NCBI GenBank assembly: GCA_022510545.1
Contig: JAFLTG010000016.1
Span: forward strand, 1-44,017
DNA: 44,017 nt
Reading direction: 5' to 3'
Source of the DNA: Lachnospiraceae bacterium
Lineage (GTDB): Bacteria > Bacillota > Clostridia > Lachnospirales > Lachnospiraceae
In this document: positions 1 through 35,164 of the stretch, in pieces
How the letters are laid out: each line of letters opens with the position of its first letter
How positions within the stretch are numbered: position 1 is the first letter of the stretch
Notes under the pieces: model-generated
Database searches by the model: none
What the model saw: the letters and a program-made list of their open reading frames with translations, nothing else
What the model was told of the DNA's origin: nothing
Position numbers and translations under genes: made by a program

Positions 1-55
1 GGTAGAACAGTGGTCTCCAAAACCATCGATGTGGGTTCGATTCCTACTGCCCCTG
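1..55 (+). tRNA. tRNA-Trp (anticodon CCA), 5' end cut by window edge
   Basis: The anticodon stem pairs 10-14 with 22-26 around a seven-base loop that carries CCA at 17-19, which reads the Trp codon UGG. The T arm (GGTTCGATTCC) and a 3' acceptor strand TGCCCCT ending at 54 with discriminator G at 55 follow. The 5' acceptor strand and most of the D arm lie outside the window. The 3' CCA is not encoded: the bases after the discriminator are CTTAG. It is transcribed convergently with the minus-strand genes that follow. Confidence 0.93.
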
Positions 56-19424: not shown

Positions 19425-21050
19425 ATGCTGCATTTAAGAATGAATATGCCCTTTGCACTAATGGCATTCTACGGAAGCCTTATGATTATAATTGTCCTGC
19501 TATTTCGTGCTTTTCTTAAGGATAAGCTGCCTAAATTTGTTTTTCCAATACTTTGGTGTGTTGTACTGCTGCGTCTGCTCGTACCATTTTCTTTAAGCAG
19601 CCCTTTAAGTATCAAAATATCTGATAGTTCGCAGTTATCTATGCTATCTGAATTTATCAATGCCATTAGCGGAGATATTTCAAGCGCTACAGCCTATTCA
19701 GTGACTACTTATGAGGATACCATAACTGCAGGCAATATAGGAGTAGACCATCCCGACATTAGTGAGGATATACCGGAAGATACCCCTATTTATCAATATT
19801 CAGATGTGATTGAAACACAATCAGAAACACCTATTACAATTACCTATGCCGGTACGGCATCATCTGCTATGGGCGATATTAGATTTTTACCTTTTAATAC
19901 ATTAATATTAATTCCCATAATTTATTTTGCAGGTGCATTGATAACATTAGTTATTTTATTACTGCAAAGAGTACATTATATTTCCAGGCTGAAAAACCGC
20001 CTGTTAATTGAACATAACGAAACCATAAACAATATTCTGCGCGAAATGGATATGGGACATATACTGGTATTTACCAATGATGAGATTGCCTCTCCTTTGG
20101 TATGCGGTTTATTTTCACCACGCATCTATCTGCCGACAAGGATGGATTTTGGTAATACGGAGCTTCTTGGACACATACTTACACACGAAGTCATGCATAT
20201 AAGACGTAAGGATAACTGGATCAAAACAGCTATGCTGGCAGTGCTTATCTTAAACTGGTTCAATCCTTTAGTCTGGCTGATGTCAAAATATCTTTCATCG
20301 GATTTGGAAACCGCGTGCGACGAAGCTGTCCTTATGCACTACCATGATGAAGAAACAAGGAAAAGCTATGCTTACAGTCTTCTTGCAATGGCAATTACAG
20401 GAAACCGGCCTACGCTGCTTTACAGTGCCTTTTCCAAAACAGAGGTAGAGAAAAGAATCAAAAGCATAGTACATTATAAAAAGGCTTCTGCATTTTTGTT
20501 AATTTTCAGCGTAGCATTCATATTGAGCAGTGCAGTTGTATTTGCTACTGGCCCACAGGCTCCTTTTTCTTCATATCTGACTTCCTACTGTGCAAGCAGC
20601 AGCTGCCGCTGGGGCGTTCAGGTTAGCATAACACGCGATATTTTACTCAGCAAAAACGCTCATAAACGTGCTGATTATATCGTATTAGACACTCTAAGAA
20701 CAGATACAACAAATGACCCTGAACTTATAGAAAATCGTATCAGGCAGGCTCTGGCTAATGAGTTTAAAGTGGAAACAGGTGCCTTTGACTTTAGCTTCAG
20801 CTTATGCTTAGATGATGAAGAAAGGGATAAAGAGTGGGAAGAATGGAATCTTACAAAGGATGCCCATGGCTATTTTCTCTACAAAGGTGAGCCTGTCAGG
20901 GTTTATATTGACGAAGATGGCGGTTACTATCAATCCAGAGAAGAAGGTTCGATTGACATAACTGTACAGAGAGATAAATACGGGTATATAAGCCGTATTG
21001 TGGAATTGCGTGAAGGCGATAGCGATTTTGACCGCCGCACCAGAGAATAA
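19425..21050 (+). CDS. M56-family membrane metallopeptidase (BlaR1/MecR1-like) with an unrelated sensor tail
   Basis: The 541 residues show four membrane helices (about 10-30, 38-57, 156-181 and 354-375), the zinc site HEVMH at 254-258 and a downstream Glu in SSDLETACDE. This peptidase is expected to inactivate the BlaI-type repressor upon signalling. BlaR1 proper ends in a penicillin-binding domain. Here the external tail (about 377-541, 165 residues) is shorter, acidic, has two close Cys (389 and 394) and shows no SxxK, SxN or KTG set. No beta-lactamase gene follows; the next gene is convergent pyrF. The ligand is unknown. Confidence 0.85.
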   Translation: MLHLRMNMPFALMAFYGSLMIIIVLLFRAFLKDKLPKFVFPILWCVVLLRLLVPFSLSSPLSIKISDSSQLSMLSEFINAISGDISSATAYSVTTYEDTITAGNIGVDHPDISEDIPEDTPIYQYSDVIETQSETPITITYAGTASSAMGDIRFLPFNTLILIPIIYFAGALITLVILLLQRVHYISRLKNRLLIEHNETINNILREMDMGHILVFTNDEIASPLVCGLFSPRIYLPTRMDFGNTELLGHILTHEVMHIRRKDNWIKTAMLAVLILNWFNPLVWLMSKYLSSDLETACDEAVLMHYHDEETRKSYAYSLLAMAITGNRPTLLYSAFSKTEVEKRIKSIVHYKKASAFLLIFSVAFILSSAVVFATGPQAPFSSYLTSYCASSSCRWGVQVSITRDILLSKNAHKRADYIVLDTLRTDTTNDPELIENRIRQALANEFKVETGAFDFSFSLCLDDEERDKEWEEWNLTKDAHGYFLYKGEPVRVYIDEDGGYYQSREEGSIDITVQRDKYGYISRIVELREGDSDFDRRTRE

Positions 21051-24544: not shown

Positions 24545-24901
24545 CTAATCTTCCATATGACTTTCTATACATGCAACAATCTTTTCCTGAATCGGCAATA
24601 CTTCTTCAAGAAGCGTTCTGGCCGCTTCCGGGTCACCCGCACGAAGCAGATCTACAATCTTGGTGTAGGCTTCGTAAACAGGCGTAATAGACAAATTCCC
24701 CGATGTTCCTTTGATTGCATGTGTCTTTTCTATTACTTCATTATAATCCGTGCCGTCAAAATCAGGTTTCACATTATATGTGTTAATAGCCTTGACAAAA
24801 GAACCGAGCAGCTTTGTATACAGTTTTTCATTTCCGCTTATACGTTTTAGTCCTCCGTCAACATCTACACCCAATTCCCTAAGCTCATCAAAAAGACTCA
24901 T
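24545..24901 (-). CDS. Stand-alone histidine phosphotransfer (HPt) protein
   Basis: The 118 residues form a four-helix HPt domain with the phospho-acceptor His61 in THAIKGTSGNLS. HPt proteins pass phosphate between receiver domains. It is the last gene of the chemosensory operon, 20 bp after the receptor gene. Candidate partners in the operon are the free CheY-like receiver and the two receiver-HD-GYP proteins. A separate HPt in addition to the one inside CheA is unusual for a simple chemotaxis operon. Confidence 0.92.
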   Translation of the reverse strand: MSLFDELRELGVDVDGGLKRISGNEKLYTKLLGSFVKAINTYNVKPDFDGTDYNEVIEKTHAIKGTSGNLSITPVYEAYTKIVDLLRAGDPEAARTLLEEVLPIQEKIVACIESHMED

Positions 24902-24921
24902 CGAATTTGCTCCTCTCTATA

Positions 24922-26289
24922 TTAATATTTTCCAAAATCATCTCCAAGTGAAATCAACTGTTCGTTAGCACTGGAGATAATGTTTGATGTCATACTTGAC
25001 GAATACGAACCGCTTTTAAATGAAGATGCAGATTCTGAACCAAGATTATATGCAGAAAGCATCTCGCGCATTTTGGAAGCCTGACCTGAAAGTTCTTCAC
25101 TTGCTGCAGCACACTGCTCGCTTGTAGCAGAGTTAGTCTGAACTACCTGAGATACCTGTGTTATAGCCTGCTCAATCTGCGCTACTGCAGTTGCCTGATA
25201 ATTGGAGGATTCTGCAATACCGTTGATAATCTTCTCGCTATCCTGTACAACTCTGGCAATTTCTTCCATAGCCTTGGATGTATCATTGACAATTTTGGAA
25301 CCCAATCCTACTTTACTGATTGAATCTTCAATTAAGTCAGCTGTCTCAGCAGATGCAGCAGCACTCTTTGCCGCAAGGCTTCTTACTTCTTCTGCCACAA
25401 CCGCAAAACCTTTTCCTGCCTCTCCTGCTCTTGCAGCCTCAACAGCCGCATTCAAAGCCAGGATATTGGTCTGGAAAGCTATATCGTCAATTGTCTTTAT
25501 AATCTTGGAAATATTTTCAGAGGACTTATTGATATCCTGCATAGCAGACATTGTATCCTGCATCTGCCTGTTTCCTCTTTTAACCTCATCAATTGCCTTG
25601 GAAACCAGAGAAGCTGCTTCATTGGCCTGCTCGGCATTCTGCTTTGTCTTATCTGCAATCTCATCAATAGATGCGGTAACCTCTTGAATCGCACTTGCCT
25701 GCTGCGTTGAACCCTGTGCCAGAGACTGGCTTGCGCTTGCCACCTGAGATGCACTGAGGGTAACCTGGGCACATGACTCGCTGATGTTGGTAAGTGTTCG
25801 CAGGTTATCGGAAACCAGCTGTTTCAGGGAATTACCCAGAATATCATCACTGGAACTTGGTTTAACTTTGATGGTGAAATCACCCTGAGCCAATTCTTCT
25901 GCAACACCTGCCTGATATTTGATATTGTCGATTACTTTTTGATATTCATCTACCAATTCCCCAAACTCATCATTATTATATTTAACCATATGGATGTCAT
26001 TTACACGTCCTAAAGCGATTTCCTTTGCCACATCGCCCATTTGCTTGATAGATCTTTCAATTGTTTTAATTAAAGCAAAAGCAACTACCAATGCAATAAC
26101 TATTGATACTATCGTGATTCCATATGTTACAAAAACGGAAATTTCAGAAACTGTTGCCAGTCTTTCAGGATCTGTAATATTAGCCGTATATTCTGTGAAC
26201 ATATTGTTGACTATCATGTTTACCAATATCAGAACAACCGGAACCGCAAATCCAAGTATTAATTTTGTTTTTATCTTCAGGTTTTTCAT
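24922..26289 (-). CDS. Methyl-accepting chemotaxis protein with minimal external region
   Basis: The 455 residues have two membrane helices (about 9-28 and 52-74) with only about 23 residues between them, too few for a Cache or four-helix sensor domain. A HAMP region follows (about 75-125), then a second HAMP-like stretch around [16 protein letters not shown]. The signalling hairpin tip is intact: [20 protein letters not shown] and [13 protein letters not shown], where CheA and CheW dock. The last 40 residues are Ser-rich and lack a clear CheR-tethering pentapeptide. It lies between cheW and the HPt gene. The signal may be sensed in the membrane or cytoplasm. Confidence 0.93.
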
Positions 26290-26319
26290 CTTTCACACAC
26301 CTCTCCTAATTTATAAAAT

Positions 26320-26856
26320 TTACTCTTCATTATTCATTTCATTTGCCTGTTCCACAACCGACAAATCATCATCATTCAATAACTTATCCGGATCAAGAAG
26401 CAATTTAACGGTATCCCCAACTTTACCTATACCGTATACATATTTATTATGCCCTGACTTATCCGAACGTCCTATAGTAGGAGGCGGTAATATGTTCTCA
26501 TCCTTAATTTCAACCACCTCTGCAATTTTTTCCACGATCAGTCCTACCATCATAGACTTTATATTAATAACAATAATACAGGTCCTGTCATTATACTCAA
26601 AGGGTTCCTGTTTGAACCGCAGTCTGACATCAACAACCGGAATGACCTTACCTCTCAGGTTTATAAGACCCTTGATATAATCCTCGGTTTCGGGTATTGC
26701 AGTAATTGCCTGCAGCTGGATAATCTCATTTACATACTGGATTTCCAATCCGAAATACTCGTTACCGGATTTGAAGGTCATATATTTGCCCTTTTGTGCA
26801 TCATGCTCATTGACAGCGGCATTGTCTTCCTCAACCTGCTTCTTCATTTCTTCCAT
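26320..26856 (-). CDS. cheW: Chemotaxis adaptor CheW
   Basis: CheW bridges receptors and CheA. The 178 residues have a charged 25-residue head, then a CheW domain: KYMTFKSGNEYFGLEIQYVNEI, TAIPETEDYIKGLINLRGKVIPVVDVR and TCIIVINIKSMMVGLIVEKI. A 25-residue acidic C-terminal tail follows (DDDLSVVEQANEMNNEE). AAAGGA lies 11 bases before ATG. It lies 52 bp after cheA and 30 bp before the receptor gene. Confidence 0.95.
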   Translation of the reverse strand: MEEMKKQVEEDNAAVNEHDAQKGKYMTFKSGNEYFGLEIQYVNEIIQLQAITAIPETEDYIKGLINLRGKVIPVVDVRLRFKQEPFEYNDRTCIIVINIKSMMVGLIVEKIAEVVEIKDENILPPPTIGRSDKSGHNKYVYGIGKVGDTVKLLLDPDKLLNDDDLSVVEQANEMNNEE

Positions 26857-26908
26857 ACGATTACCGTTCCTTTCTATATATTTACATCTTAATCTTGCGA
26901 CGTTCGAC

Positions 26909-29086
26909 CTACTCTATTAATCCGGCAGCATCCAGTATAAGCGCTATGCTTCCGTCCCCAAGCTGTGTACAGCCGGACAGTCCCTTAACTTTCTTAATAT
27001 AAGAAGGTATAGGTTTGACAACTATCTCCTGTTCGCCTACCAGTTTGTCTACAAAAAGACATACTTTTTTACTTTCAACTTCCAGAATCAACATAACTCC
27101 GTCTTCAACGGCTTCCTTGTATTCGGTCAGACCGTACCATTTACCAAGACGCAGAACAGGGAAACATTCTCCCCTTATCATAATATATTCCTCGCCGTTT
27201 GGTTCATGAATCATCATATCTTCCGTCACACGAACAAACTCATTAATTGCGCCGGTCTCCATAACAAAAGATGATTGACCCACCTCCATTACAATGCCAT
27301 CGATGATTGCAAGTGTAAGAGGAATCTTCAGACTCATAGTACTTCCAACGCCCTTTTGGCTTTCGATTTCCAGTGAACCGCCTATTGCCTGAATGTTCTG
27401 GACTACCACGTCCATTCCCACTCCACGTCCCGAATATTCGGTAACCACCTCATTGGTAGAAAATCCGGGAAGAGTTATGAACTGGAATACTTCTTTATCT
27501 GAATAAGCGCTATCCGGCTTATTGTCATCCAAAAGCCCCTGACGTCTTGCCTTGGCCACTATCTTATCCCTGTCAAGCCCTCCGCCGTCGTCCTCTACGC
27601 TTATCCACACCTTGCCGGCCTCAGTCTTGGCAGAAAGAGTAACCTTGCCTCTTTCCGATTTACCGCTGGCACGACGTTCTTCTTTACTCTCAATTCCATG
27701 GTCCACGGAATTTCGTACAATATGCATCAATGGATCGGATATATGTTCAATGATGTTCTTATCCACTTCCGTCTGTTCTCCGACCATGACAAAATCTATG
27801 TCTTTACCAAGTTTTCTGGAAACATCAAAGACTATACGATTCATCTTCTGGAATGTATTTGCAAGCGGAACCATTCGCATTGACATAATTACATTCTGTA
27901 AATCGGTAGAAATCTTGGCAAGCTGAGCCGCTGCCTTATTAAAGTTATCAAGGTTAAGCCCCGGAACTTTAAGATCCGGATTCTGCAATACTACCGATTC
28001 TGAGATGACCAGCTCTCCGATAAGTTCCATCAACTGGTCCATCTTGCTTAAGTTAACGCTGATAAAAGTAGCCTTTTCCGCCTTGGGTTTATCCTTTGCC
28101 AGCTTCTTCTGTTTACCGGGCTCCTTGGACTCAATAACGAAGTCACCGGGTGCGAGTGCCGGTTTGGCAGGCTTCTTTTCTTCTGCAGCTTCTGTTTTTG
28201 CACCTTCCTGTACGCGTGCTTCAATTTCCTCAACGCTGGATTCAAGATCGATCTGAGAAGCCGGTGCTACATATTCCATATCAAAGCCTTGCAAAAATTC
28301 ATTTGCAGTGCATTCTACTAAATCGACTTTTTCAATATCGTAACCTACACCTATAATCTCACGTAACTGTGCTTCGTCCGCCTGAGACTGCAGCAGTATC
28401 TTGAAGCCCTCCTTCAGGATTACCTCTCCGCTCTCAGGATTGGAAAGAATGTCCTCCGGAGAATACAACAAATCCTCCGCGACCTCCTTTAAGGCATATA
28501 CAGCCTTATAGGCATGGATATTGGACATTTCCGTCTCCGGGAAAAAGTATATGTAAATCCTGTAAAAATGACTGGCACTTGTTGCCATTGGTGCTATATA
28601 AAATTGTTTGGGTTCCTCATGTACATTCTCAGGTGGTTCTTTTGCTGCTTTTTTACCACCCTTGGAATCACTGTTGCCGCCCTTAATCTCATTCAGGAAT
28701 TTATCCAGAGTCGCTATGATCTGACTGGCGTCACCATCTGCTGGATCTCCATTACGAATTTTATCCATCTCGTTTGATATGAAATCCGCTACCTCCAATA
28801 CGTGATCCACCAACTCCAGATGCGGTACATTATCCGGATGGGATTCTCTCAGATAGTAAAAGACATCTTCCAGCTTGTGAGCTATAGCCGTGATCTCATC
28901 AAACATCATGATACCTGAAGAACCTTTAATGGTATGCATGGTCCTGAATATTTCATTTATACTGTCTTCATCAAAACAGTCTGCATCTTTCTGCTCAAGA
29001 ACCATATCCTGCAATTGTTCAAGCAGCTGCCCATTCTCGAACAGATACATATCCAGCATGCCGTCTGTGCTAAATTCTTCCGCCAT
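26909..29086 (-). CDS. cheA: Chemotaxis histidine kinase CheA
   Basis: CheA phosphorylates itself in receptor arrays and passes phosphate to receivers. The 725 residues give the five classical parts: P1 HPt with His51 (RTMHTIKGSSG), a P2-like domain (about 165-265), P3 dimer helices, P4 ATPase with the N box HIVRNSVDHGIE, G1 DDGGGLD and G2 GRGVGMDVV, and a P5 CheW-like end (about 585-725). A GTG 18 bases upstream keeps the frame open, but GGAG seven bases before the ATG at 29086 decides. It lies 40 bp after the CheY-like gene. Confidence 0.95.
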   Translation of the reverse strand: MAEEFSTDGMLDMYLFENGQLLEQLQDMVLEQKDADCFDEDSINEIFRTMHTIKGSSGIMMFDEITAIAHKLEDVFYYLRESHPDNVPHLELVDHVLEVADFISNEMDKIRNGDPADGDASQIIATLDKFLNEIKGGNSDSKGGKKAAKEPPENVHEEPKQFYIAPMATSASHFYRIYIYFFPETEMSNIHAYKAVYALKEVAEDLLYSPEDILSNPESGEVILKEGFKILLQSQADEAQLREIIGVGYDIEKVDLVECTANEFLQGFDMEYVAPASQIDLESSVEEIEARVQEGAKTEAAEEKKPAKPALAPGDFVIESKEPGKQKKLAKDKPKAEKATFISVNLSKMDQLMELIGELVISESVVLQNPDLKVPGLNLDNFNKAAAQLAKISTDLQNVIMSMRMVPLANTFQKMNRIVFDVSRKLGKDIDFVMVGEQTEVDKNIIEHISDPLMHIVRNSVDHGIESKEERRASGKSERGKVTLSAKTEAGKVWISVEDDGGGLDRDKIVAKARRQGLLDDNKPDSAYSDKEVFQFITLPGFSTNEVVTEYSGRGVGMDVVVQNIQAIGGSLEIESQKGVGSTMSLKIPLTLAIIDGIVMEVGQSSFVMETGAINEFVRVTEDMMIHEPNGEEYIMIRGECFPVLRLGKWYGLTEYKEAVEDGVMLILEVESKKVCLFVDKLVGEQEIVVKPIPSYIKKVKGLSGCTQLGDGSIALILDAAGLIE

Positions 29087-29126
29087 ATCCTTCTCCTTTC
29101 CCACATAGTCTATTATAATTCCTTAA

Positions 29127-29519
29127 TCAGATTAAGTCCAGTTTTTTAAGAGCCTGCTCAAATCTGTCCTGATCGATAGGCTTACCGGAATAGATAGTAC
29201 AGCCTAACTCAAAGGCCATTTTTACGTTAGCCTCATCATTAAGGGCCGTGGTCATAATAACCTTAACTGCCTTATCTTCCGGAATATTCCTTTCTTTTTC
29301 CAGATTACGAATACCTACAAGTGACTGATATCCGTCCATAACCGGCATCATAACATCCAGACACACCAGATCATACGGCTCTCCGTCTTCCAAAGCCATC
29401 ATAAATGCATCTACTGCTTCCATACCGTCAACGGTAACATCACATTCACCGTACTTTGAAAGAAAATTCACCATAAACTTTCTTGTCACAAAATCATCTT
29501 CTGCTAATAAAATCTTCAT
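29127..29519 (-). CDS. CheY-like single-domain response regulator
   Basis: The 130 residues are one receiver domain: acidic pocket EDD at 7-9, phospho-acceptor Asp55 (VCLDVMMP), Thr91 in MTTA and Lys113 in SGKPID. There is no output domain. It sits between cheB and cheA, so it is the likely direct target of CheA. A switch-binding CheY and a phosphate shuttle or sink for the HPt protein are both possible. The absence of flagellar genes nearby leaves its target open. Confidence 0.93.
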   Translation of the reverse strand: MKILLAEDDFVTRKFMVNFLSKYGECDVTVDGMEAVDAFMMALEDGEPYDLVCLDVMMPVMDGYQSLVGIRNLEKERNIPEDKAVKVIMTTALNDEANVKMAFELGCTIYSGKPIDQDRFEQALKKLDLI

Positions 29520-29569
29520 AATGTATCTCCTTTACATTTTTTGATTTTTTAATATATTAATTAATTTAT

Positions 29570-30601
29570 TTACATACTGTGAAGCAAAGAATATGCCCTC
29601 TTAGGAATATCAACTAACTTTTCCTGATATTCTACCGCACCCAGTTCATATGCGACCTTTGGCATTCCATAAACTACACAGGAGGATTCATCCTGACCTA
29701 TGGTCCTTGCCCCTGCTTTTCTCATAGAAAGCAGTCCTTTGGCTCCATCACCACCCATACCTGTAAGGATGATTCCCAGTGCATGGGGTCCGGCTGCTTT
29801 AGCCACTGATTCAAACAATACCTCTACGGAGGGACAGTGACCGTTCACTTTGGGTCCGGCTTTGACTTCCACCTGATAAGAATCGTTCATCTTAACAAGG
29901 TGCATATGTTTGTCACCTCCCGGTGCAATCAACATATGTCCCGGGAGAACACGGTCTCCCGTCTGTGCTTCCTTAACCTGTATATGGCATTGATCGTTAA
30001 GTCTCTTGGCATACATCTCGGTAAAATGTGGCGGCATATGCTGCACGCATACAATACCCGGAATATCGGTTCCAAACTCCTTCACAACCGAAAAAATCGC
30101 CTCCGTACCGCCGGTGGATGCCCCGATTGCCACAACCAGATTGCTTTTGGATACCGCCGGCAGATCCTGCTCACGTTGATTCATCACTGTCTTTTTTATA
30201 TTGCTGATCTTGACTGTCGATGCAATCTTAACCTTGACCAGCAGTTCATTCTTTATAAAATCCTCAAGCTGTGCCCTGTTAGAAACCGCCGGTTTGGCAA
30301 CAAAGTCCACGGCTCCTGCATTCAATGCATCAAATACCTTATCACTTAATGAGCTTATCACAATTACCGGAAGAGGATATTGCGGTATTAACTTTCGCAG
30401 GAATTCTATACCGTTCATTCTTGGAAGTTCCACATCCAGAGTCATTACATCCGGTTTGTGCTCCAGAATCATATCTCTTGCCTCAAACGGGTCTCTTGCT
30501 GCAGCTACTACCTTTATTGCCGGATCTTTGCTCAGATTCTGAATCAGCAATTCTCTAAATACTATTGAATCTTCTACTACTAATACCTTGATTGGCTGCA
30601 T
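29570..30601 (-). CDS. cheB: Chemoreceptor glutamate methylesterase CheB
   Basis: CheB removes methyl groups from receptors to reset sensitivity. The 343 residues have a receiver with Asp56 (TLDVELPRMNG) and a methylesterase domain with the full triad: Ser162 (GASTGGTEA), His188 (CVQHMPPHFT) and Asp285 (GMGGDGAKG). The start lies two bases after the cheR stop codon, so the writer and eraser of receptor methylation are coupled. Confidence 0.96.
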   Translation of the reverse strand: MQPIKVLVVEDSIVFRELLIQNLSKDPAIKVVAAARDPFEARDMILEHKPDVMTLDVELPRMNGIEFLRKLIPQYPLPVIVISSLSDKVFDALNAGAVDFVAKPAVSNRAQLEDFIKNELLVKVKIASTVKISNIKKTVMNQREQDLPAVSKSNLVVAIGASTGGTEAIFSVVKEFGTDIPGIVCVQHMPPHFTEMYAKRLNDQCHIQVKEAQTGDRVLPGHMLIAPGGDKHMHLVKMNDSYQVEVKAGPKVNGHCPSVEVLFESVAKAAGPHALGIILTGMGGDGAKGLLSMRKAGARTIGQDESSCVVYGMPKVAYELGAVEYQEKLVDIPKRAYSLLHSM

Positions 30602-30603
30602 TA

Positions 30604-31425
30604 CTAATTTCTCTCCCTCTTTCTGAATATCGATGGCCGTACAAGCTGAAATGGTGTGCTGCTTCTGTCTATGGTCTCTGTGGTTCCTATAAAAAGGTAA
30701 CCTCCCGGCACTAATGCATCATATATTTTCTGAACCAGCTTACGCTTCGTCTCATCACTGAAATATATCATAACATTGCGTAAAAATATAACGTGCATCT
30801 TCTTTTTAAAGGGAAATGGGTCCATCAGATTGAACTTCCTGAAAATAACCTCATTCTTCAGTTCATCAGTCACCTGATACTGGGTTCCGTCTGCTATTGC
30901 CTTAAAAAAATGTCTCTTCCATTGTTCCGGCAGCTTATCCAGCTGCTCATCACTGTAAATACCGAGCATAGCCTGTTGTAACACATTGGTGGAAATATCT
31001 GTTGCAAGCACCTTGGTATCCCACTGTCCCCTCTCCAGTCCGAAGAAATCCATTAACAACATTGCAATCATATAAGGTTCTTCTCCAGTGGAGGCAGCTC
31101 CGCACCATATACGAAGATCCCTGGATTCCTGCTCTATTTTCCTAAGCCACGGCAGTACCGTAGCCTTCATAAAATCAAAATGCTCAAATTCACGCATAAA
31201 ATATGTATGATTTGTCGTTAAAAAGTTAACAAGGATTTTCTCCTGGGTTCCGGTTATATCGCTTTCCACCACATCCATAAATTCATGATAGGTTTTCCAC
31301 CCATTCTTTATTACATAATTCTGCAGTCTGCCGTTTACTATGACTTTCTTAGAACCCAGTTCAATACCATAGCGCTGCTTCATAAAAACCGAGATTCTTT
31401 GTAACTCGTCATCTGTCATTTCCAA
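30604..31425 (-). CDS. cheR: Chemoreceptor methyltransferase CheR
   Basis: CheR methylates receptor glutamates with S-adenosylmethionine. The protein has an N-terminal helical CheR_N part and a methyltransferase core with WCGAASTGEEPYMIAMLL and VIFLRNVMIYFS. The frame is open further upstream with no ribosome site. GGGGGAG lies seven bases before TTG at 31425 and 13 bases before ATG at 31419, so I choose the TTG start (273 aa) with the ATG as close alternative. It lies 38 bp after the degenerate HD-GYP gene. Confidence 0.94.
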   Translation of the reverse strand: MEMTDDELQRISVFMKQRYGIELGSKKVIVNGRLQNYVIKNGWKTYHEFMDVVESDITGTQEKILVNFLTTNHTYFMREFEHFDFMKATVLPWLRKIEQESRDLRIWCGAASTGEEPYMIAMLLMDFFGLERGQWDTKVLATDISTNVLQQAMLGIYSDEQLDKLPEQWKRHFFKAIADGTQYQVTDELKNEVIFRKFNLMDPFPFKKKMHVIFLRNVMIYFSDETKRKLVQKIYDALVPGGYLFIGTTETIDRSSTPFQLVRPSIFRKRERN

Positions 31426-31463
31426 CTTCTTACTCCCCCTGTCACCACATAATATACACAAAT

Positions 31464-32504
31464 TCAGCAGAACTGTCTTGAAATCTTATCACATATAACA
31501 TAAATATCTTTTCCAAACTTCTTACCGGCTTCTTCCCGCATTATTTCAAGCGCTTCTTCCCTAGTATTCAAGTCTTTCTCCGTAAGGGAAGTATATCTTT
31601 CCATCACGGATACGATCTGTGCCGCAAGCGGTATCTTATCAGCCTTAAGCCCCTCCGGATATCCGCCTCCATCCCATCTTTCATGGTGATAATGCGCAAT
31701 TTCAATAGCCGTGCTTATAAATTCATTATAATCACTGTTGACATAAAGGTCGCTTATCAGCCTTGCGCCAATATTGGTATGATTCCGGAGTATAAGCGCT
31801 TCCTCATCGGTAAGCAGCTTTTTCTTAAGTATATCTGTAGGAATACCTATATAACCGATATCGCACAATGGCGCTGCAAGCTCTATCGTATCAATATATG
31901 TATCGGAAATTTTATCATCATATAATGGTGAAAGCTGCATACCCTGCGCAAGTATTCTACAGTTCTTTCTGAGGCGCTCCATATACCCCGCCTCGTAATT
32001 GGCATTTTGTACACTTATATTCGTTAAAGCGTATAGAATATTTCTTTTTTCAAGCTCCATCTGTTTCAGTTGTTCTTCCACAGATGTCTGAAGAAGCCTG
32101 TTTGTTTCCATAAGTTCTTTCCTGGCTTCATACAGGCTCAAACGGATTCCTACGCGCGCCTTTACCACTTCCGGAATAAAGGGCTTGATTATATAGTCCT
32201 CCCCACCGCTTTTAAACCCTTCAACAATATCATTCTTATTATCAAATGCCGATATGAATATAACCGGTATAGCGTTTAGTTCATTATCCTTTTTGAGTTC
32301 CCTGCAAAGCTCATATCCGTTCATACCCGGCATTGAAATATCGGTAAGGATAAGCTGAGGCATATGCTCCTTAGCCAATGCCAATGCCTCCTGCCCGTTT
32401 TCTGCAAGAAGAGGCAGACAGCCCATACCTTTTATTATCTCTTCCAGAACCAGCCTGTTTGCTTCAACATCATCTACAATAAGAATTTTCTCGTTATGCA
32501 ACAT
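31464..32504 (-). CDS. Receiver domain fused to a catalytically degenerate HD-GYP domain
   Basis: Residues 1-120 are a normal receiver (DD at 11-12, Asp55, Lys107). After a coiled coil (about 125-155) comes an HD-GYP domain that keeps the fold markers NHTNIG, HYHHERWDGGGYP and IP. It has lost the metal and catalytic residues: the HD pair is Cys214-Asp215 (LCDIGY), the following Lys is Tyr218, the earlier His of the HTRR motif is Met (GYMERLR), and the late D-x-x-D-A-L motif is ERYTSL at about 302-307. It should not hydrolyse cyclic di-GMP. A binding or regulatory role is inferred. GAGGGG precedes ATG at 32504; the kinase gene ends 10 bp upstream. Confidence 0.88.
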   Translation of the reverse strand: MLHNEKILIVDDVEANRLVLEEIIKGMGCLPLLAENGQEALALAKEHMPQLILTDISMPGMNGYELCRELKKDNELNAIPVIFISAFDNKNDIVEGFKSGGEDYIIKPFIPEVVKARVGIRLSLYEARKELMETNRLLQTSVEEQLKQMELEKRNILYALTNISVQNANYEAGYMERLRKNCRILAQGMQLSPLYDDKISDTYIDTIELAAPLCDIGYIGIPTDILKKKLLTDEEALILRNHTNIGARLISDLYVNSDYNEFISTAIEIAHYHHERWDGGGYPEGLKADKIPLAAQIVSVMERYTSLTEKDLNTREEALEIMREEAGKKFGKDIYVICDKISRQFC

Positions 32505-32514
32505 ATTACCCCTC

Positions 32515-33948
32515 TCAACTTAGAACGGTATTCAATTCCTCATACTCGGCATTTACTTTCTCATAATTCTCTTTCTGTACTGCCATTTTTAACCTGAGGA
32601 TAATACGGGAAACCTCTCGCGGCGCTCCATTCGAAAGCTGCCTTATTGTATCCATAAACATCTCGGCTTTTTCCCAATTTTCCATTTCCACACAAAGAAT
32701 CAGTTTGGAGAGGTTCTTCTTAAGCGCCTCTATATTCTCCGGTGTACCATATTCTATTGCGTTTCCGGTATCATCTGCTTCTTCCTCCGCAAAAGATGAC
32801 CTAAACATTGCGGGACGTACCGAGGCAGCATCATCCTGTGGCAGTGCCGCATTCTCTTCTTCATTTATTCCTACCCAGATAGAGAACGAAAATGTTGTTC
32901 CTTTGTTTTTCTCTCCCTCTGCCTCGATTTTACCACCCATAAGCTCTACAAGCTGCTTACAGATATTAAGTCCGAGTCCCGTGCCTCCGAACTTCCTCGA
33001 AATCGATGCATCCACCTGTGAAAAGCTCTGGAACAATTTATCTTTATCGGCCTTATCAATTCCGATTCCGGTATCTTTTACAATAAAGAATAATTCTATT
33101 TTATCCTTTACCCTTGCTGTTCTGACAACTTCCAGAGTAATCTTACCCACATTGGTAAATTTCAGCGCATTGGACAAAAGATTATTAAGTATCTGAACTA
33201 TACGCAGTTCATCCCCTATTATATTCTCGGGTATCTGCGGTGATACAGTCATAAAAAATCTGAGACCTTTTTCGGTTATCTTATTAATATGCTGGGCTTT
33301 CACATAATCCAGCATATTCCGGAAATTGAACTGGCGTGGCTCCAACTGAAATTTTCCTGCTTCCAGCTTGGAAAAATCCAATATATTATTTATGATCTTG
33401 TTCATATCGCCACAGCAACGCTCAATAAGTTTAAGCGGTTTAAGCGTCTGTTCGTCCGTAACGAACTCAAGGAGCTCTTTCACATTACCAAGCACTCCGT
33501 TTACCGGTGTTCTAAGCTCATGAGTTACATTAGCGACAAACTCGGACTTTACCTTCATTGCCTCCTGTGCTTCCTGCTTAACATGTTCAATTTCCCTGCT
33601 TAAATATTCTTTTTCCAGAGTATCGTTTGCCATGCATATATATGAACCCACGGCTCCTTCATTAAATATAATCTTAGTTTCAACAGGGAAGCAGGTCAGG
33701 TTCTTACGATAGGCAACCAGATTCTGTAGTTCATGCCCGAAGGGATAGTCTGTCTCAAAACCAATCTCCGCAGACTTAAAAGTATTGGGAAAAATATCAC
33801 TGACATTACGACCGCACAGTTCATCTCCATATTCAAGTTTCTTCTTTGCTGCATCATTTGCATAGCTGATAGTACCTATACGGTCAAATATAAAGATTAT
33901 TTCCAGCGCATCCTCTATTGGAAATGCGCCTATCTCGCTCCACTCCAT
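32515..33948 (-). CDS. PAS-domain sensor histidine kinase with an HPt-like C-terminal tail
   Basis: The 477 residues are soluble: a PAS domain (about 8-115), a short coiled coil, HisKA with His143 (NVTHELRTPVNG), and an ATPase with NNLLSNALKF, KDTGIGID and FGGTGLGLNIC. After the kinase (about 360) an acidic linker leads to a helical domain (405-477) that looks like the later helices of an HPt but has no phospho-acceptor His motif. The likely targets are the two receiver-HD-GYP neighbours. The frame is open 15 codons upstream, but GGGGGAG seven bases before the ATG at 33948 sets the start. A terminator lies just upstream of the ribosome site. Confidence 0.9.
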   Translation of the reverse strand: MEWSEIGAFPIEDALEIIFIFDRIGTISYANDAAKKKLEYGDELCGRNVSDIFPNTFKSAEIGFETDYPFGHELQNLVAYRKNLTCFPVETKIIFNEGAVGSYICMANDTLEKEYLSREIEHVKQEAQEAMKVKSEFVANVTHELRTPVNGVLGNVKELLEFVTDEQTLKPLKLIERCCGDMNKIINNILDFSKLEAGKFQLEPRQFNFRNMLDYVKAQHINKITEKGLRFFMTVSPQIPENIIGDELRIVQILNNLLSNALKFTNVGKITLEVVRTARVKDKIELFFIVKDTGIGIDKADKDKLFQSFSQVDASISRKFGGTGLGLNICKQLVELMGGKIEAEGEKNKGTTFSFSIWVGINEEENAALPQDDAASVRPAMFRSSFAEEEADDTGNAIEYGTPENIEALKKNLSKLILCVEMENWEKAEMFMDTIRQLSNGAPREVSRIILRLKMAVQKENYEKVNAEYEELNTVLS

Positions 33949-33971
33949 TATATGTCTCCCCCTGATAATAC

Positions 33972-34011
33972 TAAAAAAGGCAGCAAAAAACATTACGTTC
34001 CTTTGCTGCCT
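33972..34011 (-). terminator. Terminator between the HD-GYP regulator and the kinase gene
   Basis: AGGCAGCAAA (34002-34011 on the minus strand) and TTTGCTGCCT (33978-33987) form a perfect 10-bp stem followed by TTTTTTAG. The T-run ends only 24 bases before the kinase ATG and 11 before its ribosome site. No room for a separate promoter is left, so the operon downstream probably depends on read-through. Confidence 0.85.
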
Positions 34012-34023
34012 GTATTCAATCTA

Positions 34024-35112
34024 TCATGAAAAATCAAACATATGAATTACTTCTATAACGTTGAAGAAATCTTCTTTGGCAAGCGCGAAACATTCCAGCA
34101 CATCCGGTGAGAACTGACCACACTCACCTTTCATTATCATATCATACGCTACACTGTTAGCATATGCGTCCTTATATACCCTGTGGCTTACCAGTGCGTC
34201 ATAGACGTCTGCAATGGCGACTACCTGTGTATATATCGGAATATCTTCTCCTGCCAGATGGTCGGGATATCCCTTACCATCCCATCTCTCATGATGATAA
34301 CGGCAAATATTGTAAGCATAACGGTAAAAATCACTCGACTTATCTTTGTAGCTTCTCTCGAGTATCTCACAACCAATGGTTGTATGCTTCTTCATAATTT
34401 CAAACTCTTCCTTCGTAAGCTTACCCGGCTTAAGAAGTATTGCATCGGGAACACCTATCTTACCGATATCATGTAGTGTGGCAGCCCTTGAAACCTCATC
34501 AATCTGTTCCTGTGTAATGCCATACTTGGGGAAGTACTTCATAAGGTACTTCATCATAATTCTGGTGAAATATTTGATTCGCCTTGTATGTTCTCCGGTT
34601 TCGGCACTTCTTGCCTCAACAACGGAACTCAATGTCTCAATCATAAACTGATTGTTCTCGCGAATCTTCTTATCCTTGGCAATGAGTTCTTCTTCCTGTT
34701 CCTTTAAACGTTTCTCCATATCACGCTTATTCTGGTACAGTTCTATGATATTCTTACTTCTTCTCTTAACAATATGCGGATAAAAAGGTTTATGTATTAC
34801 ATCTGCTACACCATATGAATATGCCTGATCCTCACTGTCGAGTGCATCCTCGCTTGTAATGAGTATGACAGGAACCTCATCCAGCATATCCTCTTTGTGC
34901 ATATACTCCAGTACACCGAAGCCATTCATAATAGGCATTACAATGTCCAGCATTACAAGGTCCATATTCGGATTTTCCTTGAGTCTGGCAATCGCCTCTT
35001 CTCCATTGACTGCTTCAGTCAACTCGTACTTCTCACTCCGGAACATTTCCTTAAGTATTTCTCTGTTTACTTCTTCATCATCAACAATCAATAACCGTAG
35101 CTTATCTGCCAT
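34024..35112 (-). CDS. Response regulator with an intact HD-GYP cyclic-di-GMP phosphodiesterase domain
   Basis: The 362 residues have a receiver (DDE at 11-13, Asp56 in MLDIVMP, Lys108), a coiled coil (about 118-155) and an HD-GYP domain with every expected residue: His175 (GEHTRRIK), His214-Asp215 and Lys218 (LHDIGKIG), His243 (KKHTTIG), His273-His274 (YHHERWDGKGYP) and Asp302/Asp305 (ADVYDAL). HD-GYP enzymes hydrolyse cyclic di-GMP. AGGAG eight bases before ATG at 35112 supports this start; GTG three bases earlier is the alternative. It is the first gene of the chemosensory cluster, under its own promoter. Confidence 0.94.
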   Translation of the reverse strand: MADKLRLLIVDDEEVNREILKEMFRSEKYELTEAVNGEEAIARLKENPNMDLVMLDIVMPIMNGFGVLEYMHKEDMLDEVPVILITSEDALDSEDQAYSYGVADVIHKPFYPHIVKRRSKNIIELYQNKRDMEKRLKEQEEELIAKDKKIRENNQFMIETLSSVVEARSAETGEHTRRIKYFTRIMMKYLMKYFPKYGITQEQIDEVSRAATLHDIGKIGVPDAILLKPGKLTKEEFEIMKKHTTIGCEILERSYKDKSSDFYRYAYNICRYHHERWDGKGYPDHLAGEDIPIYTQVVAIADVYDALVSHRVYKDAYANSVAYDMIMKGECGQFSPDVLECFALAKEDFFNVIEVIHMFDFS

Positions 35113-35164
35113 CACAATATCTCCTAAATATTCAGTATTTTATCAATATTTCAGCATCATTTAT

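Follow-up and report, generated by a model that had tools for sequence, protein, structure and literature searches.

The stretch of DNA analysed here (the window; 44,017 nucleotides of a Lachnospiraceae bacterium, GenBank assembly GCA_022510545.1, contig JAFLTG010000016.1) carries a cluster of ten open reading frames, all on the minus strand between positions 24545 and 35115 and separated by intergenic gaps of 2 to 52 bases. From 35115 down to 24545 they encode an HD-GYP response regulator predicted to be active, a soluble histidine kinase, a degenerate HD-GYP response regulator, CheR, CheB, a CheY-like receiver, CheA, CheW, a methyl-accepting chemotaxis protein (MCP) and a stand-alone histidine phosphotransfer protein (HPt). 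The cluster amounts to a second chemosensory system besides the flagellar che genes, and we tentatively propose an array that quite possibly adjusts cyclic di-GMP by way of a phosphorelay and HD-GYP proteins. Such an array would probably lower cyclic di-GMP and in this way tune flagellar behaviour.

An initial annotation made from the window had proposed this gene content, and open reading frames and Pfam matches agree with it, three labels being based on matches under the respective cut-offs: the HPt (22.3 bits, cut-off 24.6), the PAS domain of the kinase (22.2, cut-off 27) and the HAMP domain of the MCP (19.7, cut-off 25). Because the identical gene set recurs in many other genomes, the cluster is more than a chance arrangement. 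As had also been annotated, no cheC, cheD, cheX or fli/flg genes were recognised in the window, either in the cluster or in its surroundings. However, the lack of flagellar genes is not a property of the organism, whose genome encodes FlhA and FliG.

Genomic setting and distribution of the cluster

In the host assembly (2.85 Mb in 178 contigs, 87% complete), flhF, flhG (assigned by eye), a YcgR/PilZ gene adjoining the flagellar cheB, cheA, cheW, cheC, cheD and fliA lie in one stretch of contig C137, and a second CheR is encoded on contig C119. The CheA of the window and that of the flagellar cluster are 33% identical. As flagellar genes and a separate che set are present elsewhere in the genome, the window cluster represents a second chemosensory system. 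The initial annotation had considered that it would be an ordinary chemotaxis operon if the genome held flagellar genes and no other che cluster; the flagellar genes are indeed there, but the idea of a single che cluster was rejected in view of the second CheA, which is accompanied by cheB, cheW, cheC and cheD on C137. Altogether, the host genome yields two matches to the CheA dimerisation domain, 22 MCP matches, 17 GGDEF matches and four matches above cut-off to T2SSE-family ATPases, the latter identified at the level of the family. No flagellar cheY came to light in the draft assembly of the host, where the contig with FlhA breaks off early. Among 19 flagellar stretches fetched from relatives, 18 contain a CheY of their own, about 30% identical to the cluster CheY.

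Relatives of the cluster were sought by a CheA search of 145 relatives and by a contig scan (best 80 matches, 79 loci). At least 121 fetched loci, 109 of them distinct by CheA, have a CheA of 53% identity or more. A comparison of gene order, as suggested in the initial annotation, bears out a conserved arrangement: the full ten-gene set is found in 63 of the 77 loci that span the whole stretch, in three layouts differing only in the position of the HPt gene (last in 29, first in 17, between the HD-GYP and kinase genes in 17), and five of the remaining 14 lack the HPt only. The CheW-MCP part is repeated inside the cluster in L144, L155 and L190 (together with CheA in L144 and L155), possibly by tandem duplication or as an effect of assembly. 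In the genus of the host, 44 of 77 genomes have the cluster-type CheA (manual count). Carriers include the cultured Acetatifactor muris DSM 23669, and most of the 79 loci are from metagenome-assembled genomes. Some carriers of the latter kind (L122, L124, L125, L133, L142 and L150) are titled Blautia, Muribaculaceae, Gastranaerophilales, Alistipes, Muribaculum and Bacillus, and are probably mislabelled.

In a family sample of 397 genomes from 334 genera, with cluster-type CheA defined by an E-value of 1e-200 or better, 46 carriers were counted manually and FlhA was matched in 211 genomes. All 46 carriers have flagellar genes, compared with FlhA in 165 of the 351 non-carriers (Fisher p = 2e-14, or 1e-12 if G451 is scored as lacking them; uncorrected for phylogeny). 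In 45 carriers FlhA is matched at E below 1e-100; in the remaining one, G451, the FlhA match is weak, and FliG is matched at 2.6e-39. This association argues against a non-motility system that would serve surface attachment, matrix, pili or gene regulation with a Wsp-like logic and would merely reside in flagellated lineages, an output that had been raised in the initial annotation and that we consider unlikely. On the other side, the cluster CheA is an additional one: the host has its own flagellar che set, and all 46 carriers have at least two matches to the CheA query (two candidates scored per genome), the second CheA being 31-35% identical in 18 carriers among the matches listed and itself cluster-type in G434, again among the matches listed. 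The four T2SSE-family ATPases make pili or related machines possible. Also, two carriers have no clear flagellar markers. Among 49 named carriers searched, FlhA was found in 48, and the exception, G171, has no FliG either; G052, a member of the genus that has the cluster, gives only weak FlhA and FliG matches. As both are drafts, these absences may reflect an assembly gap or a real loss.

Phosphorylation sites, HD-GYP proteins and transcription units

Residues were counted across orthologs including the row of the window itself. The phospho-accepting histidine is kept in CheA (His57, 110/110), in the HPt (His61, 82/82 aligned orthologs) and in the soluble kinase (His158, 96/96). Similarly, the receiver aspartate is kept in the cluster CheY (Asp55, 107/107), in CheB (Asp56, 104/106, the other two being unreadable), in the active HD-GYP protein (Asp57, 84/85, the remaining one unreadable) and in the degenerate one (Asp55, 99/99). 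Thus, on the level of conserved predicted catalytic and phospho-acceptor residues, the annotated union of an array with phosphorelay parts and a putative cyclic-di-GMP phosphodiesterase is upheld.

Metal-ligand positions of the HD-GYP domains were numbered after PmGH (PMC4159591). The distinction between one active-looking and one inactive-looking protein, made from the window alone, is reproduced throughout the orthologs, as all eight ligands are present in 85 of 85 predicted active proteins, whereas two to six of the eight are lost in 99 of 99 degenerate ones. In every degenerate protein H221 or H250 is lost (99/99), and in three both are; the residues of the GYP motif are present in 99, 98 and 99 of 99, and the stabilising lysine in 4 of 99. 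According to a joint alignment, the H189 equivalent is a histidine in 52/99 and the D305 equivalent an aspartate in 14/99. In the degenerate protein of the window, Y, Y, C and E stand at the equivalents of E185, H189, H221 and D305, and the lysine is replaced by Y. Its structural model (mean predicted local distance difference test score 86) matches solved HD-GYP domains (4r8z). Single ligand mutations abolished the activity of PmGH, with the exceptions of E185 and D305, and RpfG was reported to lack E185 and H189, counter to a simple ligand rule (PMC4159591). The possibility that the two HD-GYP proteins are recent duplicates was rejected because the active one sits apart from the other in a tree, on a long branch of 2.37.

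The model of the soluble kinase has a mixed alpha/beta N-terminal domain and a predicted four-helix bundle at the C-terminus (residues 418-491; predicted template modelling score of the model only 0.46). The bundle is strongly conserved, has no conserved histidine and may be a docking module. The true start of the kinase gene is possibly the ATG of residue 16. In five relatives checked (L037, L038, L039, L040 and L163) large hybrid kinases with receivers are encoded beside the cluster and could be a source of phosphate for the HPt; no hybrid kinase was seen beside the cluster in the window itself.

Hairpins were scored at z below -2 with 20 shuffles each. Behind the active HD-GYP gene they occur in 76% of 83 loci, and behind the MCP gene in 61% of 96; the values are 33% for the CheB gene, 17% for the HPt gene and 1-7% for the kinase, degenerate HD-GYP, CheR, CheY, CheA and CheW genes. 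The stem of the hairpin behind the active HD-GYP gene differs in sequence between the two forms of the cluster, with mostly one version in form A and another in form B, and neither is recognisable in some loci. With this hairpin between it and the kinase gene, the active HD-GYP gene may be a separate or attenuated unit. Sigma-70-like promoters occurred at chance level (35 found, 35.9 expected).

The same hairpin is relevant to the idea that two systems merely adjoin, namely a bare CheR-CheB-CheY-CheA-CheW-MCP array and an independent relay of kinase, HD-GYP proteins and HPt that receives no phosphate from CheA. Among the stretches fetched, those of G219, G534 and G490 indeed have the core alone, the kinase comes together with the second HD-GYP, and the active HD-GYP gene is set off by the hairpin. 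However, in the window 10 bases separate the kinase gene, and 2 bases the degenerate HD-GYP gene, from the next gene downstream, hairpins after these two genes are no commoner than in shuffled sequences, and the gene order is kept in most covered loci, which makes two independent systems very unlikely.

Coordinates of the features are given in Table 1. Upstream of the cluster (labels by eye) lie a VanZ-like gene, a gene for a UPF0118-type membrane protein, engB, clpX and clpP, and downstream a DUF218-like gene, a TPR gene and pyrF. Elsewhere in the window, the only Rfam match is a tRNA at 1-55 (+), cut by the contig end, and a gene at 19425-21050 (+) resembles, by eye, a BlaR1/M56-type membrane protease.

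Table 1. Features of the chemosensory cluster, listed in the direction of transcription (REC, receiver domain)
Feature	Coordinates	Strand	Basis or remark
REC + HD-GYP response regulator, predicted active	34024..35115 (ATG at 35112)	-	Pfam Response_reg, HD_5
Inverted repeat followed by T-run, terminator- or attenuator-like	33978..34011	-	13-pair stem
Soluble histidine kinase: PAS-like (weak), HisKA, HATPase, C-terminal four-helix bundle	32515..33993	-	Pfam; predicted model
REC + degenerate HD-GYP response regulator (CDIGY for HDIGK, GYP present)	31464..32504	-	Pfam REC + HD_5
CheR methyltransferase	30604..31461	-	Pfam CheR
CheB methylesterase + receiver	29570..30601	-	Pfam
CheY-like single receiver	29127..29519	-	Pfam
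CheA kinase	26909..29104	-	Pfam Hpt, P2, H-kinase_dim, HATPase, CheW (P1 to P5)
CheW	26320..26856	-	Pfam
MCP with a short loop between its two hydrophobic segments	24922..26289	-	Pfam; weak HAMP match
Stand-alone HPt (His61)	24545..24901	-	Weak Pfam Hpt match

CheA class, receptor and CheY

In a tree of CheA domains P3-P5, the CheA of the window falls into a Clostridia clade of 20 rows (support 99/100), outside the E. coli/Vibrio rows and apart from the rows labelled F1 on background knowledge or gene content. It does not group with F1, and the CheA of the host's flagellar cluster is found in a different part of the tree. The deeper connection of the Clostridia clade to the E. coli/Vibrio/Phaeobacter and Agrobacterium rows (92/90) is weak and runs over long branches, in a tree with few references and no securely labelled one of class ACF. 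The F1 class, which we take to be that of flagellar chemotaxis in Firmicutes, shares the core Che proteins with the window cluster. The C137 set, with cheC and cheD, is such a set; the window cluster differs from it in its CheA (33% identity, see above), in lacking cheC and cheD and in its shorter receptor class.

Residues 195-416 of the cluster MCP align with Tsr (1qu7) over 222 residues each, ungapped in the printed alignments, and its signalling domain is therefore of Tsr length (36H-like), as is required of class F7 receptors. Also in common with F7 and Aer2-type receptors, the MCP matches Vibrio Aer2 best among the NCBIfam models, although under the cut-off of that model, and the best PDB match of the window CheA is E. 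coli CheA; the difference lies in the separate Clostridia clade of the latter. When 21 of the 22 MCPs of the host genome (L105 left out) were aligned and classed by eye, four, including that of the cluster, had a shorter C-terminal arm, most others were about 7 to 14 residues longer in this arm, and three were short or truncated. Receptors of unlike length would speak for two distinct arrays.

DFGKY is the C-terminus of the cluster MCP. Of 100 cluster MCPs, 87, among them that of the window, have the pentapeptide pattern xZxxZ (as defined in PMC7390727), and 99 end in KY; among the 21 readable MCPs of the host genome, only the cluster MCP has the pattern. Such pentapeptides occur in about 1% of chemoreceptors in Firmicutes and 2.89% in Clostridiales (PMC7390727). 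MCPs encoded beside a related CheA in three other families (L076, L079 and L082) share an F-x-K-Y C-terminus.

With genome G048 as reference, seven form-B genomes have a cluster CheY of 75-76% identity and a flagellar CheY of 97%; in eight form-A genomes the values are 89-100% for the cluster CheY and 96-99% for the flagellar one. Between the two cluster forms the cluster CheY diverges while the flagellar CheY stays at 97%, which argues mildly against a shared partner at the flagellar motor. It seems rather unlikely that the cluster is a second chemotaxis pathway proper, in which its CheY would act directly on the flagellar switch with the HD-GYP proteins as accessories. Such a pathway would agree with the near confinement of the cluster to genomes with flagellar genes, and with a related class of CheA that is the sole CheA match in 12 FlhA-bearing genomes of the family, flagellar-like genes lying near some of them. 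The CheY divergence, as if the protein had another partner, speaks against it, as do the cheY genes that the flagellar stretches of relatives carry themselves and genome G142, in which CheA of the related class occurs with no FlhA or FliG match.

Proposed mechanism and possible origin

For the array that we prefer, separate from flagellar chemotaxis and acting on cyclic di-GMP, we infer the following flow of phosphate. CheA would be controlled through CheW by the MCP, a receptor that lacks any sizeable external domain, and possibly by a small number of further receptors in its length class. CheR and CheB would adapt the MCP, aided by its pentapeptide-like C-terminal tail. CheA would phosphorylate CheB, the CheY-like receiver and, directly or via the HPt, both HD-GYP receivers, with the soluble PAS-like kinase as a second input. 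The intact HD-GYP protein would hydrolyse cyclic di-GMP, and the degenerate one, with its receiver and GYP surface retained, may be a phosphorylation-controlled partner or scaffold. Lowered cyclic di-GMP would then relieve brakes, for example the PilZ/YcgR protein whose gene adjoins the flagellar che set.

Several points weigh against this proposal. An intact HD-GYP motif is no proof of activity. The active HD-GYP gene lies behind a terminator-like hairpin and is perhaps its own unit, in which case the ten genes may not form one transcript. The phosphate donor of the HD-GYP receivers could be either CheA or the soluble kinase. Finally, the carriers G052 and G171 suggest an output that may not need flagella.

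Among known systems, Wsp of Pseudomonas (class ACF) is similar in being a chemosensory array with a receiver-bearing cyclic-di-GMP enzyme as output (PMC8846402). However, WspR makes cyclic di-GMP; the window cluster instead combines HD-GYP proteins with a CheY, a stand-alone HPt and a further kinase. RpfG of Xanthomonas is likewise a REC-HD-GYP regulator, and its GYP motif serves protein contact (PMC3749722), but it is fed by the sensor kinase RpfC and not by an array. In a plasmid-borne che cluster of Agrobacterium leguminum (NZ_CP119973.1; L220), a gene for an HD-domain response regulator lies upstream of CheY-like, CheA, CheW and MCP genes; there, in contrast to the window, only one HD-type regulator is present, no kinase or HPt is annotated in the stretch, and CheA is 38.5% identical over P3-P5.

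The fetched stretches of family and order-level loci contain simpler versions of the cluster. Of the 12 family genomes with FlhA in which the sole CheA match is of the related class, eight were fetched, and seven of these have the arrangement cheA-cheW-cheR-cheB; FlgN/FlgK-like genes are near in G374, G485 and the order-level G105. The related-class CheA of the order-level G142 (444 bits) speaks against this class being always flagellar. The core of CheR, CheB, CheY, CheA, CheW and MCP without kinase or HD-GYP is that of G219, G534 and G490, as mentioned. In G355, G211, G345 and G431 the core is joined by the kinase and the second HD-GYP protein (the counterpart of the degenerate one), without the first, and G434 and G543 have a partial form. 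This second HD-GYP protein has all eight ligands in G355. D305 is missing in G345, E185 in G434 and G543 (in G543 the Y of GYP is also a K), and both of these ligands together with the lysine in G211; in G431 the protein is badly degenerate. In clusters with both HD-GYP proteins, form A has mainly lost H221 and form B mainly H250, with parsimony requiring 3 changes for H221 and 2 for H250.

As the more basal relatives show the core and then the core with kinase and a mostly intact HD-GYP protein, a stepwise accretion is suggested. The degeneration fits a relaxation after a second enzyme had joined, for a small number of genomes and with G431 as a case that does not fit. A fuller scenario, which we regard as possible but somewhat doubtful, is that a Clostridia chemosensory class, plain flagellar in appearance in some relatives, was duplicated or regained elsewhere as a second array, to which a kinase and HD-GYP pair and then a second HD-GYP protein and the HPt were added. 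In two branches, by different routes, the HD-GYP protein acquired first would then have lost its catalysis and turned into a regulatory pseudoenzyme, within an array outside classes ACF and Tfp that would control the breakdown of cyclic di-GMP and not its synthesis.

Among the titles and abstracts listed in searches of the open-access literature, none describes the cluster and none concerns motility of Acetatifactor. A review gives modulation of cyclic di-GMP as confined to two of 19 recognised chemosensory classes, ACF and Tfp (PMC8846402). If our proposal is true, the cluster would extend this to a Gram-positive lineage that is associated with flagella and works by way of HD-GYP phosphodiesterases. 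It occurs widely in the Lachnospiraceae, a mostly gut-dwelling family, and also in the cultured A. muris, and its pair of an intact and a degenerate HD-GYP protein, the latter being intact or nearly so in some relatives, offers a test case for the origin of a pseudoenzyme within a signalling operon.

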